Source: Alphaproteobacteria bacterium LSUCC0396 (GTDB lineage: Bacteria; Pseudomonadota; Alphaproteobacteria; Puniceispirillales; Puniceispirillaceae). Taken from it: a DNA stretch of 64,000 nucleotides. The notes beneath the pieces were generated by a model, which saw nothing but the letters and a program-made list of their open reading frames with translations, did not search any database and was not told the DNA's origin. This document shows positions 3,303 to 9,397 of this stretch, piece by piece; the first letter of the stretch is position 1; every line of letters begins with the position of its first letter. The stretch is taken from contig CP166131.1 of assembly GCA_041228345.1 (NCBI GenBank), positions 1,915,001 to 1,979,000 of the forward strand, written 5' to 3'. Made by a program: the position numbers and the translations under genes.

Positions 3303-4427
3303 TTAATACTGTGAATGGTGCCTAACCAGACCATGTGTTTTCAAACTACTTAAATAGTCCTCACGATTTATATAGGCGCCTGCCATTTTTCGTTTTCCCT
3401 GAAAAGCGCCCCGGCCATGTAGGATCCGCCAATTATCAAAAACTATCATTTCGCCGGGCTTTAGTTGATACCGCCATTGATAGTTTGAGCTGTTAAATCG
3501 GCCATCCAGATAACGGATCCCGGCATAGAGCTGGGTCATCTGTGATTCGGGAAGTCGTATCGTTGCCCGGTCATAATTGTTAAAGGTTAACTGAAGGAGC
3601 CGTCCCTCATGGTCATGTCGTAGGATTGGTCGGCGTGCCTGCAAATTTGAACCATCCCCTTTGTAAATGCCAGTAACCTCAATCTGGCCAAGTGCGGCAT
3701 ATAAAATCGGGTCATCTTGTTGAAGCTGGTGAGCCACTCTAAAACCGTCAACCATGACAGACTCACCGCCAGTTGCGTCATACTCCATACAAAGAAGTAT
3801 TTGCAGCCCAGGTGCGTCTAAACTGTAAGTCGAGTCGGTATGTGGTCGCAGTTCCTTTGGCGTATACGCGCTATCTGCCATGGTTTCATTCGCTTCAAAC
3901 TCCCACAACCCACCAAAAATAGTCTCGCGAATATAGCCAATATTATTTGCAAACTTGGCCACAGACGTCTGTTCGCATGGACAGTGTTTCACAAGCACAA
4001 ATCCATAATCGGCAATCTTTTTTAGAGCGTCTGAGGTGCCTGATCGAGTTAACGCCTGATCATACTCAATTGAAACAAGATCACTGGTTATGTTATGCGC
4101 ATCCCAGAGCATGGGCACCGGTACATCAATTTCATCCATCGGCTTAAAGTAAGCTGCAAGAAATCCGCTATCATAGTCCGCGAAATTTTCAAGGTCGGGC
4201 CATTTGATGCAAATGAATTGGCCGTCCTCTTTTAGTTCTACCTGTTCTGGGGAGATATTGGCAGGCACTTTCGCTGTGAATAATTCACGTTGGTGACTTT
4301 GACTGTCAAAGCTTACGGGGTCGCGTGCGTTATCACGCAACCAAAAATAAGAAAAATCAGAAGACTGTCCGTTTTGCAACACAACCTTCAAAGAGCTAGA
4401 ATCAAGTCGAAAAGCGCTGATTTTCAT
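3303..4427 (-). CDS. Gamma-butyrobetaine-hydroxylase-like Fe(II)/2-oxoglutarate dioxygenase
   Basis: 374-residue protein with the two-domain layout of gamma-butyrobetaine/trimethyllysine dioxygenases: an N-terminal DUF971-type domain (about residues 1-95, with FWLRDNARDP at 28-37) and a C-terminal TauD/TfdA double-stranded beta-helix. Iron ligands are visible as H196-x-D198 (RPHTDSTYS) and the distal H337 (ILHGRG); the 2-oxoglutarate-binding arginine is probably in the following KRKMAG stretch. The family hydroxylates quaternary amine substrates in carnitine metabolism. Unusually, the zinc-binding cysteines that follow WLRDN in the characterised animal enzyme are absent here. The gene stands between two unrelated transport genes, so the substrate is open. 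Confidence 0.82.
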   Translation of the reverse strand: MKISAFRLDSSSLKVVLQNGQSSDFSYFWLRDNARDPVSFDSQSHQRELFTAKVPANISPEQVELKEDGQFICIKWPDLENFADYDSGFLAAYFKPMDEIDVPVPMLWDAHNITSDLVSIEYDQALTRSGTSDALKKIADYGFVLVKHCPCEQTSVAKFANNIGYIRETIFGGLWEFEANETMADSAYTPKELRPHTDSTYSLDAPGLQILLCMEYDATGGESVMVDGFRVAHQLQQDDPILYAALGQIEVTGIYKGDGSNLQARRPILRHDHEGRLLQLTFNNYDRATIRLPESQMTQLYAGIRYLDGRFNSSNYQWRYQLKPGEMIVFDNWRILHGRGAFQGKRKMAGAYINREDYLSSLKTHGLVRHHSQY

Positions 4428-4481
4428 CTGTGTGTCCCCTCGATATAATTTATAACTGAAATCTCCTTCGCTCTCTTTCTT

Positions 4482-5678
4482 TCAATTAGATGACTTTCTT
4501 TCAATCACAAAGCTAACAATTGCTCCAAAAACAAGGCCCCAAAAAGGCGAGCCAATATTTAGCATTGGAACTTCACCTAATGTGACTAAAAATGCAATTA
4601 GCCCCCCCATTGGGTGACTTGAGCTAAATGCACCAGAGAAAGCGGCTTGAAGTGTTTTCAATAGGGCTAGGCCGGCAAGAGTGGCAAGAAATGCTGGTGG
4701 AGCTGCAATCAGAATGTTTGTTACTGTTGGAGCAGTGAGACCAAATAAGATTGCAAAAACTCCCAAAAATACAGCAGAAATCCAATGCGCATCTGGCCTA
4801 TTGCTTGATACAAGGATAGCATTCACCGGGCCCGTTAAGCAGGTTGAGATGCCACCATAAATTGCTGTGAATAGGGACATAAATCCACAGTAAGAAGTGA
4901 TTGTATTAACTGGCGGGTTGTGACCAACATTTTTAAGTACAACAATGCCCTGAGCATTTTGAGCCGCAATAACTGTTACAGCAAGAGGCACGACTAGTTC
5001 TAGAGTTGCTGACAGTGAGAATTCAGGAAGGTAAGTTTTTGGTGTAACAATAAAGGCGGTTAACGGGAATTCACCAGTCTCGAAACCTTGCCGCTCAAAA
5101 ATTATTATGACTCCAACTATCAGCGCATAAATCAGTGGTGGAAGTAAAAGAGGCATTCGATTAAGTGCGATAACTGCAACGAAGGTCAATGACATTGCCG
5201 AGACAAGAAAAAAGTCGGCTTCAAACGCTCTAACCCAGTCAAGTCCGAAACTCACAAATACACCGGCGACCATGCCCATTACGATTGGCATCGGAAGCCA
5301 GTCCATAATTTTTTTGACCCAACCAGTCAAACCAAGACACAGCAGTAAAGCGCCTGTAAGGATGTATGCTCCAATAACTTCTTCAAAGGAAATAGAGTTC
5401 AATGCAGTGCCAACTAATATTGCACCAGGTATGGTCCAAAGAAAGACGAGTGGCTGCCTGTAACTCACAGACATTGCAATGCTTAAGAAGCCATTAAAGA
5501 CAAATACGGCAAAAATCCAAGAGCCAATGTCACTCTCACTCAGGCCAGAACCGAGAGATACGCTTATGATTATCGCTACAGGTGCGGATGCTGCAAAAAG
5601 AAAAGCAACAAAAGCATTCAAAAATTCATTGAGCAAAACGCTGATGGAATTTCTTTGGCTCAATGGTTTTTGCTTCAC
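4482..5678 (-). CDS. benE: Benzoate/H+ symporter, BenE family
   Basis: 398-residue hydrophobic protein with about 11-12 membrane segments and the BenE-type repeat PMPIVMGMVAGVFVSFGLDWV in the middle, plus GPVNAILVSSN and an ending of PFWGLVFGAIVSF. BenE proteins import benzoate-like carboxylates by proton symport across the inner membrane. No aromatic-degradation genes adjoin it, so the actual substrate may be another small carboxylate. The start ATG at 5678 opens straight into the first helix region. A sampled stretch (5101-5160) has 23 G+C in 60, clearly poorer than most of the window, which hints at acquisition by transfer. Confidence 0.82.
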   Translation of the reverse strand: MKQKPLSQRNSISVLLNEFLNAFVAFLFAASAPVAIIISVSLGSGLSESDIGSWIFAVFVFNGFLSIAMSVSYRQPLVFLWTIPGAILVGTALNSISFEEVIGAYILTGALLLCLGLTGWVKKIMDWLPMPIVMGMVAGVFVSFGLDWVRAFEADFFLVSAMSLTFVAVIALNRMPLLLPPLIYALIVGVIIIFERQGFETGEFPLTAFIVTPKTYLPEFSLSATLELVVPLAVTVIAAQNAQGIVVLKNVGHNPPVNTITSYCGFMSLFTAIYGGISTCLTGPVNAILVSSNRPDAHWISAVFLGVFAILFGLTAPTVTNILIAAPPAFLATLAGLALLKTLQAAFSGAFSSSHPMGGLIAFLVTLGEVPMLNIGSPFWGLVFGAIVSFVIERKSSN

Positions 5679-5799
5679 AGAATCAAACTTTCCAGCATTA
5701 GAAGATATTTAAAATGACGCCGTCGATTAACAAGTCTCATTCAGAAACTGTTTTGTTCAAAATTCGTTGGCACAAATAAGTCTGTATTTGAGTTGAAGT

Positions 5800-6090
5800 T
5801 TAATCCAAGCCCTCGATTACTCGGACATCTCGCTCAACATCCCCCAGAAGTGCGAATGCTGCCTTATACGCATCACTGGTGAAGGCCGCGCGGGCCAAAT
5901 CAGTGCTATCGAATTCTGCTATTACAGTTCGTTGCTCAATACCATTTTCAAACGTAGCCACCGGCATCCCCCTAGCTATAAATTTAGCACCGGCATTTTT
6001 CATAGCCTCTAGGGCTTTTGGCGCATAGTTGCTGAGATTTTTCTCATTTGGGGCTTCTCTGTAGGAAACCACTATGTATCCTTTTGGCAT
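5800..6090 (-). CDS. DUF1330 domain protein
   Basis: 96-residue protein matching the DUF1330 layout of the ferredoxin-like dimeric alpha/beta-barrel superfamily: an opening strand KGYIVVSYRE, a central KFIARGMPVATFENG, then a strand with the RTVIAEFDS type motif and AAFTSDAYKAAFAL. The biochemical role of DUF1330 proteins is not established. A strong AAGGAGG lies 5-6 bases before the ATG. The hairpin element at 6118-6164 lies just upstream, so transcription from the oxidoreductase gene at 6283 should be reduced or stopped before it. Confidence 0.85.
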   Translation of the reverse strand: MPKGYIVVSYREAPNEKNLSNYAPKALEAMKNAGAKFIARGMPVATFENGIEQRTVIAEFDSTDLARAAFTSDAYKAAFALLGDVERDVRVIEGLD

Positions 6091-6117
6091 TCTTACCTCC
6101 TTTTTCTGTTAAAATGG

Positions 6118-6164
6118 TGCCACAAAAAAAGGCCAGCGCAAAGGCTAGCCGTGAGTGAAGCGCC
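6118..6164 (-). terminator. Rho-independent terminator-type hairpin, copy A of a two-copy element
   Basis: Read on the minus strand: stem GGCTAGC (6150-6144), loop of 6, stem GCTGGCC (6137-6131, one G-U pair), then seven T (6130-6124). It lies 118 bases after the stop of the oxidoreductase gene at 6283 and 28 bases before the DUF1330 start. The 47-base block including TGCCACAAAA on the outer side and the GTGAGTGA side reappears with about six mismatches and a 2-base gap at 7417-7461. Confidence 0.75.
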
Positions 6165-6282
6165 ACAGTCATAGCAAGCCTTCCAATAACCAAACGACGG
6201 GACAGCTAATCCTATAAGAGTGGTATTATTTCTCATTGTAGAGATTTACAAACCCGCTTCTAGAAGAAGCCATGGCGCGCCA

Positions 6283-7245
6283 TTAAAGTGTGTGCGCAAG
6301 TATGCCCTCCACAAGTTTTTGTACGCGAAAAGCCTCATCCATAGTTGCAAGTTGATTAGGTTTGCCCGAGAAATGAAGTGCCAAATTGTTGAGTTGTGCT
6401 CTAAGAATCTCGGCTCGCGGGTCTTTGGGTGGTTCGCGCAAGGCAATGAAATCGCCGCCGCCACTGACTGCATCTTTATGAAAATCAACAATGCGGCGGC
6501 TCGTTTTGGTTCCTTTGACGGTAAATTCCTGTCTGTCTGGTTGAGTGCCACCCACGGTCGCCAAGATAGAAACAGCTTGCCCTGTTTCCGATTCAAGCCT
6601 TGCCAGGACACCAGTTTCACACAAAGACGGGTCATCGGGGTATGTCGTCGTCGCAAAAACAAGCGATAAGGGCCCCAAGACCCTTTGGGTGAAAAAGAGA
6701 AAATGGGAAATCACTTCGCGGGTCATGCCACCCTCAGCACGAAACCGCAACCAATCTGCGCCTTTTTGCCATTCACGAGGCCAATTAGGGTAGGTCACAA
6801 CAATATCGACACCAACCAATTCACCCATCTCTCCTTTTGCGTTTGCCTCCAACAACTCCGATAAGGCTACGCCTGATGCCTGGGTAAAATTGACAGCCAC
6901 CGGAACAGTAAAGGCGTTTAGGCGGTCAAACAACCTCTGGCTCTCTTCAAGGTTGATGCCAAAGGGTTTTTCAAGAAACAGGGCTTTCCCTGCTGCTGCC
7001 GCTTCAAGGGCATACGCTTCCCGGGAGGCCGGTGGACATGCCAGATAAACGAGGTCTGCGTTTTTTATGGCATGGCTCGCACTTTCCATGATTTGAGATT
7101 GGGAGTCTAAAGAGATGGCTTGTTTGCAAGCAGATTGTTTTGGGTCCCATAAATAATCTGGCTCGAATTCTGGATGAAGACGCATGTGGGTAAGCATCCG
7201 CTGTCCCATTATACCCAACCCAATGATGGCTACTTTGATAGTCAT
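6283..7245 (-). CDS. Gfo/Idh/MocA family NAD(P)-dependent oxidoreductase
   Basis: About 320-residue soluble dehydrogenase. The N-terminal Rossmann fold is plain (IKVAIIGLGIMGQRM with GxGxxG), followed by the family motif EKPFGINLEES near residue 100, where the lysine is the usual catalytic residue, and a C-terminal alpha/beta domain containing GGMTREVISHFLF. These enzymes oxidise or reduce sugars, inositols and related polyols; the substrate here is unknown. The ATG at 7245 overlaps the stop of the small upstream gene in an ATGA arrangement, which fixes the start better than the longer frame to 7281 and implies translational coupling. Confidence 0.87.
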   Translation of the reverse strand: MTIKVAIIGLGIMGQRMLTHMRLHPEFEPDYLWDPKQSACKQAISLDSQSQIMESASHAIKNADLVYLACPPASREAYALEAAAAGKALFLEKPFGINLEESQRLFDRLNAFTVPVAVNFTQASGVALSELLEANAKGEMGELVGVDIVVTYPNWPREWQKGADWLRFRAEGGMTREVISHFLFFTQRVLGPLSLVFATTTYPDDPSLCETGVLARLESETGQAVSILATVGGTQPDRQEFTVKGTKTSRRIVDFHKDAVSGGGDFIALREPPKDPRAEILRAQLNNLALHFSGKPNQLATMDEAFRVQKLVEGILAHTL

Positions 7246-7406
7246 TTGTTTAGCTCTTCCAGTTCCTGTCTTGCCTGCCACATATCAACACAAGGCTGGC
7301 AACGACCCGTAGCTGGGCGAATAGCTCTGTACGCAGGATGCTTCTTGCACCCGTCGACGAGAATGCTCAGCAACTTAACCTGCTTTTCTAAATTGTCAGT
7401 TTTCAT
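7242..7406 (-). CDS. Small CxxH/CxxC protein, likely metal-binding
   Basis: 54-residue protein whose reality is supported by its ATGA overlap with the oxidoreductase gene and by an ordered cysteine/histidine pattern: C20-x2-H23 (CKKHPAYRAIRP) and C36-x2-C39 (CQPCVDMW). Such a four-ligand set in a short protein usually binds one zinc. I recall similar short, basic proteins with a HPxYR...C..C..LW pattern in proteobacterial and phage-like genomes, but I cannot assign a function. The ATG at 7406 is preceded by little Shine-Dalgarno sequence; a TTG six codons upstream would also be in frame. It could be a regulator of the coupled enzyme. Confidence 0.6.
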   Translation of the reverse strand: MKTDNLEKQVKLLSILVDGCKKHPAYRAIRPATGRCQPCVDMWQARQELEELNK

Positions 7407-7416
7407 CCTAAAACTT

Positions 7417-7461
7417 TGCCACAAAACAAGACCAGCGCAAATACTGGCCGTCAGTGACGCC
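7417..7461 (-). terminator. Terminator-type hairpin, copy B of a two-copy element
   Basis: Minus strand: stem GGCCAG (7449-7444), loop, CTGGTC (7435-7430, one G-U pair), then TTGTTTTGT. It shares about 85% of positions with copy A at 6118-6164 by my alignment. Unlike copy A it has no minus-strand gene close upstream: the cupin gene at 7626 is on the plus strand. It therefore probably ends a short RNA starting within 7460-7620, or acts as an attenuator in the leader of the small gene that starts 11 bases later. Both copies have AGCTAAT (plus strand) a few tens of bases upstream on the transcribed side. Confidence 0.55.
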
Positions 7462-7625
7462 TATGCTCTCACTGAGCTAATACAGTGGGTATGGTGGTCT
7501 AGGGTCAGGAGAGGAGAGCCAATCACCCTTTATCTTCCGTCACCTAGGATGCGTAGGTTGTTTGAAGAGTCGCTTTTGAGTTAGAGTTTTCGTTAGTGCC
7601 GTCGATATTTTAAGGAGGCGAAGCC

Positions 7626-7913
7626 GTGATGCGTGAAAAAGCGAAACCAACCGTTCAAATTGATGACGGCAAAGTGAAAGTGACCCGATGGGATTTTTCA
7701 CCAGGAGCGGAAACAGGGTGGCATAGGCACGAGATGGATTATGTTGTCGTACCTTTAACTGATGGCGCTTTGACGGCAGAAATGCCAGACGGCTCTGTTA
7801 TTGAGAACAAATTGACTGTGGGGGCAAGCTACGTTCGTCCAGTAGGTGTTGAACACAACATCATTAACAACAACGATGGGCCGTATAGCTTCATTGAAGT
7901 CGAATTGAAGTAA
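7626..7913 (+). CDS. Small cupin-domain protein
   Basis: 95-residue single-domain cupin. Cupin motif 1 is visible as GAETGWHRHEMDYVVVPLTDG (G..WHRHE at about residues 29-36) and motif 2 as the PVGVEHNIIN part near residue 75, giving the usual histidine/glutamate metal ligands. Small cupins of this type include enzymes and sensors of small polar ligands, and none can be singled out. An AAGGAGG at 7612-7618 precedes both the GTG at 7626 and the ATG at 7629; the two starts differ by one residue. It is divergent from the small metal-binding gene and convergent with the dehalogenase-like gene. Confidence 0.85.
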   Translation: MMREKAKPTVQIDDGKVKVTRWDFSPGAETGWHRHEMDYVVVPLTDGALTAEMPDGSVIENKLTVGASYVRPVGVEHNIINNNDGPYSFIEVELK

Positions 7914-7914
7914 C

Positions 7915-8808
7915 TCAAAAGAAATTAACTAGTTCGTTGAAAACATCGTCTGGCACTTGTTCTGCTGGGTAATGTCCACAATCTAGCTTTTTCATGTTTA
8001 CAATGTTGTTACAATATTGGGGCCAGGCGATATTGGGATCGAAGAATTTCTCAGTGTGACTGTGCGCACCCCAGTAAACAGCTGTTGGACAAGTGACCAC
8101 ACGACCTGCATCGTGGTCTAACTTATCATGCTCCATGTCGACACTAACCCCAGCTCGATAATCCTCGCAAACAGCATGGATGTTTTCTGGTGTGCAGCAT
8201 CGTGCATATTCAGCCAATGTTTCTTCGCTAAAGCCACCTTTGCCAATGCCCATTTTAGTTAGCTTTTTCAAAATATAATAATCTTCCCGCCCCCCAATCA
8301 GTTTTTCGGGGATGTCATATGGCTGTGCCATGAAAAACCAATGATAGGAATTTAAAGCAGATCGCCAGCTTGTGTTGCTCAGAACATAGTGCGTCGGAAG
8401 AATATCGAACGTAGCTAGCTTCTGAACTGCCTTTGGGTGGTCGAGTGCCATGCGATGCGCAACGCGACCACCACGGTCATGGCCGGCGACGCAAAACTCC
8501 TCGAAACCAAGTTGCGCCATGACATCAATGTGATCCTGAGCCATGCGACGAAAGGAATAATTTGAGTGGTCTGCCTTGCCACGCGGTTTGCTACTGTCTC
8601 CGTACCCCCGAAGATCAGGAACCACCACGGTAAACTTCTCAGCTAAGCGTGGGGCAACAAGGTGCCAGTGGACATGGGTCAGAGGGTTGCCATGGAGCAG
8701 AAGTATCGGTGGGCCAGCTCCACCGTAGCGAAGGTTAATAGAGACTTCAGGGTCAGTCGTTTGAACTTTTGCTTGGTGGAAGTTTTCAAACATTTTCGTT
8801 ATCCCCAT
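7915..8808 (-). CDS. Alpha/beta hydrolase, fluoroacetate (haloacetate) dehalogenase type
   Basis: 297-residue hydrolase with the residues of fluoroacetate dehalogenases at nearly the same numbering: nucleophile D111 in GHDRGGR (with carboxylate-binding R112 and R115), D135 in FDILPT, halide-pocket H156-W157 (SYHWFF) and Y217 (DYRAG), and the general base H279 (CGHYPAEQ). The oxyanion motif LLLHGNP is at 37-43. The family hydrolyses the carbon-halogen bond of haloacetates to give glycolate. A GGGGAT before M6 (8793) suggests translation may begin there rather than at 8808. No transporter or haloacid regulator is adjacent. Related epoxide hydrolases share the fold but not the His-Trp-Tyr pocket. 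Confidence 0.85.
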   Translation of the reverse strand: MGITKMFENFHQAKVQTTDPEVSINLRYGGAGPPILLLHGNPLTHVHWHLVAPRLAEKFTVVVPDLRGYGDSSKPRGKADHSNYSFRRMAQDHIDVMAQLGFEEFCVAGHDRGGRVAHRMALDHPKAVQKLATFDILPTHYVLSNTSWRSALNSYHWFFMAQPYDIPEKLIGGREDYYILKKLTKMGIGKGGFSEETLAEYARCCTPENIHAVCEDYRAGVSVDMEHDKLDHDAGRVVTCPTAVYWGAHSHTEKFFDPNIAWPQYCNNIVNMKKLDCGHYPAEQVPDDVFNELVNFF

Positions 8809-8986
8809 AGAAAAGCTGTGTCTATGTTGAAAAGCGTATGGTTTGGCTTTTTAAAAAACAACAACTAACAACCGACCCTTTAGCCCCCTTTTTTGAAGGC
8901 GTGAGACTAAGATGGTTACTGGGGCGAGCTTTGAGGGCTATGGTATCAGTTTTTCCCATGCTTGACGCTAAGTCTTTAGCAGAGTG

Positions 8987-9220
8987 TCATTTATTTGAGT
9001 CTATAACTAGCTTGCTGACGAGACGCCTAGTTAATGGCGCGACAACAAGTACAGTTGGAAATGCAACAATCCAGCTTTTGAACCAAGCGGTCATCCACAG
9101 ATTTAAAAATCCATCAATCAATCCAGTTGTGTTCAAGACTGAGACACCTGAGACAACGCAAGACATAAAGATTGATAGGAAAAAGCCAAACGTTAGTTGG
9201 GTGTATTTGGTTGGGATCAT
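8987..9220 (-). CDS. DUF2798 small membrane protein
   Basis: 77-residue protein with two hydrophobic segments (about residues 9-28 and 45-62) and the DUF2798 pattern: SIFMSCVVSG, then NTTGL...FLNLWMTAWFKSWIVAFP, then APLTRRLV. DUF2798 proteins are short two-helix inner-membrane proteins of unknown function. The ATG at 9220 is the only sensible start; a purine-rich AAGG lies about 10 bases upstream. It is separated by 178 bases from the hydrolase gene downstream. Confidence 0.72.
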   Translation of the reverse strand: MIPTKYTQLTFGFFLSIFMSCVVSGVSVLNTTGLIDGFLNLWMTAWFKSWIVAFPTVLVVAPLTRRLVSKLVIDSNK

Positions 9221-9397
9221 TTCTATTGAACCTTGTAACGTGTAATTTTAATCTAAATGTGAGGACTGCCCGATCCGGCAAATAAACCCATCTTCAAGGG
9301 CTGAAAAAACACATCGGTTATTGTTGGTTTGATGTTAGGTGATCAATTGCCTAGACTTTTAATAGTTTTAAGTCTAGCGGCCGTAAAAATATACCAA

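Follow-up and report, generated by a model that had tools for sequence, protein, structure and literature searches.

On the minus strand of the window, the whole 64,000-nucleotide stretch of strain LSUCC0396 analysed here, two copies of a real and conserved short hairpin element occur, which is most likely a chimera of terminator and promoter as well as a module boundary. The preferred reading, held at a probability of about 0.6 from sequence comparison, is a 37-base joint in which a terminator and a promoter on the same strand are fused, with transcription starting downstream of the hairpin, and which bounds a gene module. Further copies, covariation of the stem, a fixed spacing of two boxes, copies with one half only and mosaic flanks have been observed.

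The two copies in the window

Copies A and B (Table 1) lie where the initial annotation had placed them. It described the pair as near-identical; two copies are real, but the wording was generous, with 37 of 46 bases identical (28 of 33 over the final part). Each consists of a 7-pair stem, a 6-base loop, a T-run and a GTGGCA tail. Both score as terminators on the minus strand, as had been claimed, and fold better than most shuffled sequences (3 to 5 of 200 shuffles equal them). An AGCTAAT box, thought to accompany both hairpins, occurs six times in the window against 6.0 expected by chance, its distance to the hairpin differs between A and B, and it has been discarded.

The description of both copies as lying just before a start codon was borne out. 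Copy A ends 27 nt ahead of the ATG of a DUF1330 gene (6090), copy B 10 nt ahead of the ATG of an ORF for 54 amino acids with CxxH and CxxC motifs. The pair of DUF1330 gene and BenE-like transporter gene is also present in L060 and L117. The 54-aa ORF is 77% identical to the ORF following a copy in L128. As noted in the initial annotation, copy B has no minus-strand gene directly ahead of it to terminate, because the cupin gene behind it (7629-7913, plus strand) is divergent. Its stem is intact although no upstream gene is there to be terminated.

Two other parts of the window, 7447-7570 and 8843-8924, have numerous matches in G004 and G009 and thus resemble additional dispersed repeats of intergenic regions; 7447-7570 ends inside hairpin B.

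Table 1. Elements A and B, their parts and the genes downstream, in window positions
Feature	Position	Strand	Basis or remark
BenE-like transporter gene after the DUF1330 gene	4482..5678	-	PF03594
DUF1330 gene downstream of copy A	5800..6090	-	PF07045
Copy A, element (3 flanking bases, stem-loop, T-run, GTGGCA tail)	6118..6153	-	pattern and covariance-model matches, covariation
Copy A, stem-loop GGCTAGC-CTTTGC-GCTGGCC, then T-run 6130-6124 (putative intrinsic terminator part)	6131..6150	-	fold, covariation
Copy A, putative -35 box TTTGCG (loop and first stem base)	6137..6142	-	conserved loop, fixed spacing
Copy A, putative extended -10 box TGTG-G-CACCAT	6114..6124	-	conservation, spacing; predicted start point 6107
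GFO/IDH/MocA oxidoreductase gene after the 54-aa ORF	6283..7245	-	domain match
54-aa CxxH/CxxC ORF downstream of copy B	7242..7406	-	no Pfam match
Copy B, element	7417..7452	-	pattern and covariance-model matches, covariation
Copy B, stem-loop GGCCAGT-ATTTGC-GCTGGTC, then TTGTTTT (7429-7423)	7430..7449	-	terminator score, fold
Copy B, putative -35 box TTTGCG	7436..7441	-	conservation, spacing
Copy B, putative extended -10 box TGTG-G-CAAAGT	7413..7423	-	predicted start point 7406, the A of the ATG (leaderless)

Copies in the genome and in relatives

A 26-base pattern with up to three mismatches occurred at nine places in the 2.59-Mb genome, its reversed control at none. A DNA search of the same genome gave 14 matches at E values up to 10. 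The covariance-model search that the initial annotation had proposed yielded further copies with compensatory changes: 12 copies in the window's genome at E<=0.1 (weakest 0.057), 11 of them at 0.01. In the genus, 13 of 16 genomes gave matches at E values up to 0.1, G001 and G013 weakly, and the number of matches ranged from 0 to 13 per genome. Copies at E<=0.01 were present in 27 of 61 genomes of the family.

An exact pattern was found in 16 stretches among 84,980 genomes. Twelve are labelled SAR116 or Ca. Puniceispirillum, the others are single MAGs labelled Planktomarina, Filomicrobium, Rhodospirillaceae and Proteobacteria. The contig of the Planktomarina MAG (L060) is probably a mis-binned SAR116 contig, since near its copies it shares 99.8% identity with G006:C85 of the window's genus. 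No exact match was obtained in the viral contigs of IMG/VR, and no near match among the 16 order-level relatives searched. Genome G041, listed as the same species, contained neither a copy nor a match to window positions 3303-9300, a weak absence because the assembly consists of 260 contigs.

The 35-row alignment A4 excludes L028, L045 and L052, which represent one false match recurring in three genomes, with another stem and TTTTTTGGTGGCA. L121, nearly a duplicate of L060, was excluded from the counts of start distances, flank pairs, upstream genes and stem pairing and kept in the flank-homology comparison and the conservation analysis of 39 groups. From the flank-homology comparison onward, window matches scoring below 24 were dropped.

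Stem and putative terminator half

Over 31 distinct rows, 95.4% of the stem cells were paired, and both sides had changed in five of the seven pairs. Covariation amounted to 0.368 versus 0.181 in shuffled alignments, and slid versions of the structure scored far lower. None of 500 shuffles reached the observed value, a count that is no probability because the structure was derived from the same sequences, which are related. As in intrinsic terminators, a stable G+C-rich hairpin is followed by a T-run. From structure and covariation, the stem-loop and T-run are predicted to end transcripts arriving from upstream.

This role cannot be claimed for every copy, because stem integrity does not follow the presence of an upstream gene on the same strand. 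Stems of six to seven pairs had an upstream neighbour on the same strand in 14 cases, on the opposite strand in nine and none in two; the figures for weaker stems were eight, eight and two, all from a crude ORF caller. The idea that the hairpin is kept solely where a same-strand gene lies upstream was not supported by these counts. That the left arm might pair with the tail as an antiterminator was rejected by eye, the tail remaining constant when the stem changes.

Promoter-like boxes

Copies were sorted by homology of their downstream DNA into 39 groups with one representative each, 30 of which have the CA of the tail in register. In these 30, which lack detected downstream homology, loop and tail are nearly invariant. 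The weakest loop position is G in 26 of 30, and the tail reads [GA]TGGCA with few exceptions. The three positions after the tail (d1-d3) hold 0.65, 0.34 and 0.02 bits, and d5 to d24 at most 0.49 bits each. Between them, a lone T stands at d4, four bases after the tail, in 29 of the 30 representatives, which were chosen for CA and not for T. This position lies outside the 36-column model and the patterns by which the copies had been found.

Such conservation of loop and tail exceeds the needs of a terminator, which alone would leave both free, and thus points to a second signal. TTTGCG, a spacer of 17 bp and TRTGn-CANNNT is, in sequence terms, the layout of a putative -35 box and extended -10 box. 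The R of TRTG corresponds to the alternation of G and A in the tail.

The spacing was examined with TTTGC-N{4,14}-TTTTRTGNCANNNT in 16 genomes. From 54 matches, 45 had a spacer of 17 bp, one of 18 bp and none of 16 bp, against an average of 1.0 match at the spacings other than 16-18 bp. Replacement of the C of the -10 box by A, G or T gave 13 matches, none with 17 bp. The stem was broken (at most four of seven positions paired in register) in 13 of the 45 sites, representing nine distinct loci, where 1.0 was expected; an ORF check covering nine of these 13 sites placed two (L156, L158) within called ORFs. The family-level sites L180 and L183 with broken stems and L181 and L182 with five pairs are not among the 13. 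A looser motif without TTTT was noisy, with 253 matches over nine spacings and 67 at the right one, and its reversed-pattern control (67 versus 1) therefore understates chance. Outside the genus it gave 0 to 7 matches per genome, and 10 of 15 inspected sites were located inside called ORFs; these matches were left out of the evidence.

Positions 2 and 6 of the putative -10 hexamer are A and T, respectively. The hexamers TTTGCG and CANNNT depart from the consensus TTGACA/TATAAT, and a generic promoter scan did not call the sites of A and B. Every match at the right spacing opens the -10 box with C, an uncommon choice among ordinary sigma-70 promoters. In 74 upstream regions from the same genome, promoters of the E. 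coli type showed no enrichment and thus supplied no local consensus for comparison. A search with PF04542 revealed only three sigma-70-type factors in the genome: RpoH, FliA and a frame of 691 amino acids, which by its length would be RpoD. RpoD appears the likeliest user of the boxes. It leaves the strict C at the first -10 position unexplained, and an activator may be involved. A sigma-54 site, suggested by TGGCA, was rejected by eye for either strand, the order and spacing of TGGCA and TTGC being unfit.

At L156, L157 and L211 (in G010, G007 and G004), the box pair occurs without hairpin in similar sequences, with no clear ORF just downstream. These may possibly represent an RNA gene.

Distance to gene starts and halves found alone

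In 58 of 66 copies both boxes are present (at most two of 12 positions mismatched), and the next start codon follows at a median distance of 33 nt. The eight copies without boxes have a median of 221 nt (p=0.0004). For six of the 58, where the nearest 450 nt held no ORF start, the distance was set to 450, and copy B was counted with a later start, the 54-aa ORF falling below the limit of 55 amino acids. The 66 copies stem from regions fetched for a match to a model that includes the tail, so that tail-less and stem-less copies are undersampled.

An ATG is placed exactly at the predicted start point in four different genes (L123, L135/L136/L138, L169 and copy B), and, at the sites compared, no start codon precedes that point except one alternative ATG in L151. 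Leaderless mRNAs are reported for the alphaproteobacterium Sinorhizobium meliloti (PMC3616915).

The boxes are also kept where the stem decays. Ahead of CRP-like genes (L110, L125, L168) they accompany weak stems (4/7). In the G008 relative of copy A, 90% identical over the gene pair, the stem is weakened to 5/7 and both boxes are retained; in the G004 relative of copy B (82% identity), the stem is lost (3/7) and both boxes are again retained.

Gene exchange at the element

Among pairs of copies with shared flanks, eight share both sides, 38 the upstream side alone and 37 the downstream side alone. G008 and G000 have 566 nt in common upstream of one copy and different genes after it, DUF1330 in one genome and a polysaccharide-deacetylase-like gene (below the Pfam cut-off) in the other. 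An array in G000 (L009) packs seven elements, two weak and one tail-less, into about 4 kb next to a tyrosine integrase, and the elements are separated by small genes on the same strand. Tyrosine integrases are found near the clusters in L009 and L012. Two integrases were scanned, with the architectures DUF6538/Phage_integrase and Arm-DNA-bind_3/Phage_integrase. NCBIfam gave no integron-integrase match for them; a weak XerC match and an integrase-domain match both stayed below the cut-off. From the flanking sequences, the element appears to accompany accessory genes and to be a boundary where the gene modules on its upstream and downstream sides are exchanged. The agent may be either a recombinase or plain homologous recombination.

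Several further recurrences were noted in these regions. An ORF of 61 amino acids without Pfam match lies just before the element with a different gene after each (L012:2839-3024, L060:5117-5302, L125, and L129 upstream of 15758); it is intact in L060, L125 and L140/L012, and L129 matched at the DNA level only. A second recurrent boundary is ATGACCCGCA, which coincides with or closely follows stop codons. The genes concerned differ, and the loci comprise at least L009 (minus strand, behind ORFs 5869-6171 and 3438-4334), L010:3369, L060, L111, L116, L118 and L200. A short ORF beginning MTEIIND follows two different genes (L009, L010). In L012:939-2456 and L118:10430-11900, a tyrosine integrase with DUF6538 faces a DUF1330 gene in convergent orientation, and each frame starts with LTALVTL, as if flanked by an inverted repeat. 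In the arrays L009, L060, L117 and L118, several genes adjacent to the element come from small families, namely DUF1330, GYD, DUF3764 and a Dabb-like ORF without Pfam match. These families are presumably ferredoxin-fold barrels.

Proposed function and alternatives

The start points, the involvement of the main sigma factor and the activity of the element as promoter and terminator are predictions from the sequences. Transcripts from upstream would stop in the T-run of the stem-loop. TTTGCG in the loop would act as -35 box, the right arm and T-run as the 17-bp spacer, and TRTGn-CANNNT directly after the T-run as extended -10 box. RNA polymerase would initiate about 7 nt downstream of the -10 box, and the next transcript would begin some 17-23 nt past the T-run. 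For copy A, a start at 6107 would give a short leader with a ribosome site; for copy B, a start on the ATG at 7406 would give a leaderless mRNA. The hairpin is then expected outside the gene's own mRNA, because the boxes place the start downstream of it.

The boxes could instead be operator half-sites of a dedicated activator or repressor whose site is embedded in terminators. Their invariance, higher than in ordinary promoters, the strict C and the 0 to 13 model matches per genus genome would suit such a protein. By eye, however, the boxes are neither inverted nor direct repeats of each other, and RNA polymerase geometry would account for the distances to start codons, for TRTG as an extension and for the lone T that follows CA by four bases, so that a regulator site is judged unlikely. 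The initial annotation had proposed either a leader attenuator, with the hairpin transcribed in the leader of the downstream gene, or the ends of two related small RNAs. A hairpin with T-run shortly before start codons speaks for them, and a TTGCTATAAT-like stretch 20-30 nt upstream was seen by eye in some copies. Against them stand the predicted start point downstream of the hairpin, the unrelated sequences that precede copies of the same gene, the lack of a conserved leader or sRNA body upstream, and an excess of box pairs over background even at broken stems. Moreover, no Rfam family reached its gathering score in the window. Both modes are now considered quite unlikely. What stands of the proposed control is a repeated, covarying, terminator-like hairpin ahead of genes that it probably controls.

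The mosaic flanks might also reflect an integron-like site at which a recombinase recognises the hairpin and moves units of start side, gene and hairpin. The L009 array of seven elements in about 4 kb with small same-strand genes, the integrases near L009 and L012, the predominance of one-sided sharing (38 and 37 versus 8) and the 61-aa ORF or its DNA before the element in L060, L125, L129 and L140, where the gene that follows varies, would agree with this. Yet the two integrases scanned lack an integron-integrase match in NCBIfam, many copies are single, box pairs occur without hairpin, and homologous recombination between 33-bp repeats would yield the same mosaics; cassette recombination of this kind is held to be improbable. 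A plain terminator or a REP/MITE-like dispersed repeat without any role for the next gene accounts for a dispersed, multi-copy hairpin with T-run. It can hardly be right, as tail and lone T are conserved past the T-run without detected downstream homology, and boxes accompany a nearby start codon (median 33 nt in the 58 boxed copies).

A bolder version of the fused terminator-promoter, speculative and itself unlikely, is a stop-start joint. The terminated polymerase would be released onto the next -10 box and restart there, and the same hairpin would be where SAR116 exchanges accessory genes in a cassette-like system that needs no integron integrase. Each shuffled gene would arrive with half of a joint that shields it and draws in polymerase from the adjacent gene.

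If the fused joint is real, about 40 bp suffice in an ocean bacterium to end one transcript and begin another. It would provide a searchable promoter class for a group without promoter maps in the literature searched, explain how single genes slot into islands and stay expressed, and lend itself, as a natural system, to tests of whether polymerase restarts after termination.

Comparison with known systems

The element is not described in the available parts of the literature searched on overlapping terminator-promoters, SAR116 promoters and repeats, and morons, nor in those of a SAR116 genome paper (PMC12421898). Restart of RNA polymerase after intrinsic termination is reported in single-molecule studies (PMC6978322, PMC6978380, PMC7957599). 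A polymerase that terminates beside a promoter would be favoured to restart there itself. Those studies did not concern a natural element, however, and the link to the present one is drawn here.

Intrinsic (Rho-independent) terminators share the G+C-rich 7-pair stem, the 6-base loop, the T-run and the compensatory changes. Unlike in these, the loop and the six bases after the T-run, unneeded for termination, are nearly invariant in the element. The extended -10 promoter of sigma-70 family factors reads TRTGnTANNNT. The element has TRTGn before NANNNT, a second box 17 bp upstream and a fitting distance to start codon or ribosome site; it differs by CANNNT with a strict C, by TTTGCG as -35 box and by the position of both boxes in or adjoining a terminator hairpin.

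In integron cassette arrays, small same-strand genes are separated by a hairpin element, attC, with the core boxes RYYYAAC and GTTRRRY, and their order varies between genomes. Small same-strand genes parted by a hairpin, in varying order, are found here as well. By eye, RYYYAAC occurs upstream in some copies, with no conserved GTTRRRY downstream. In contrast to attC, the conserved positions of the element are promoter-like, the modules would carry a promoter, and the two integrases scanned are of non-integron type. Phage morons are units of promoter, gene and terminator inserted between other genes, and resemble the modules as small self-contained expression units moved between contexts. The element differs from them in its setting in bacterial genomes and in a single 37-bp joint that would serve as terminator of one unit and promoter of the next.
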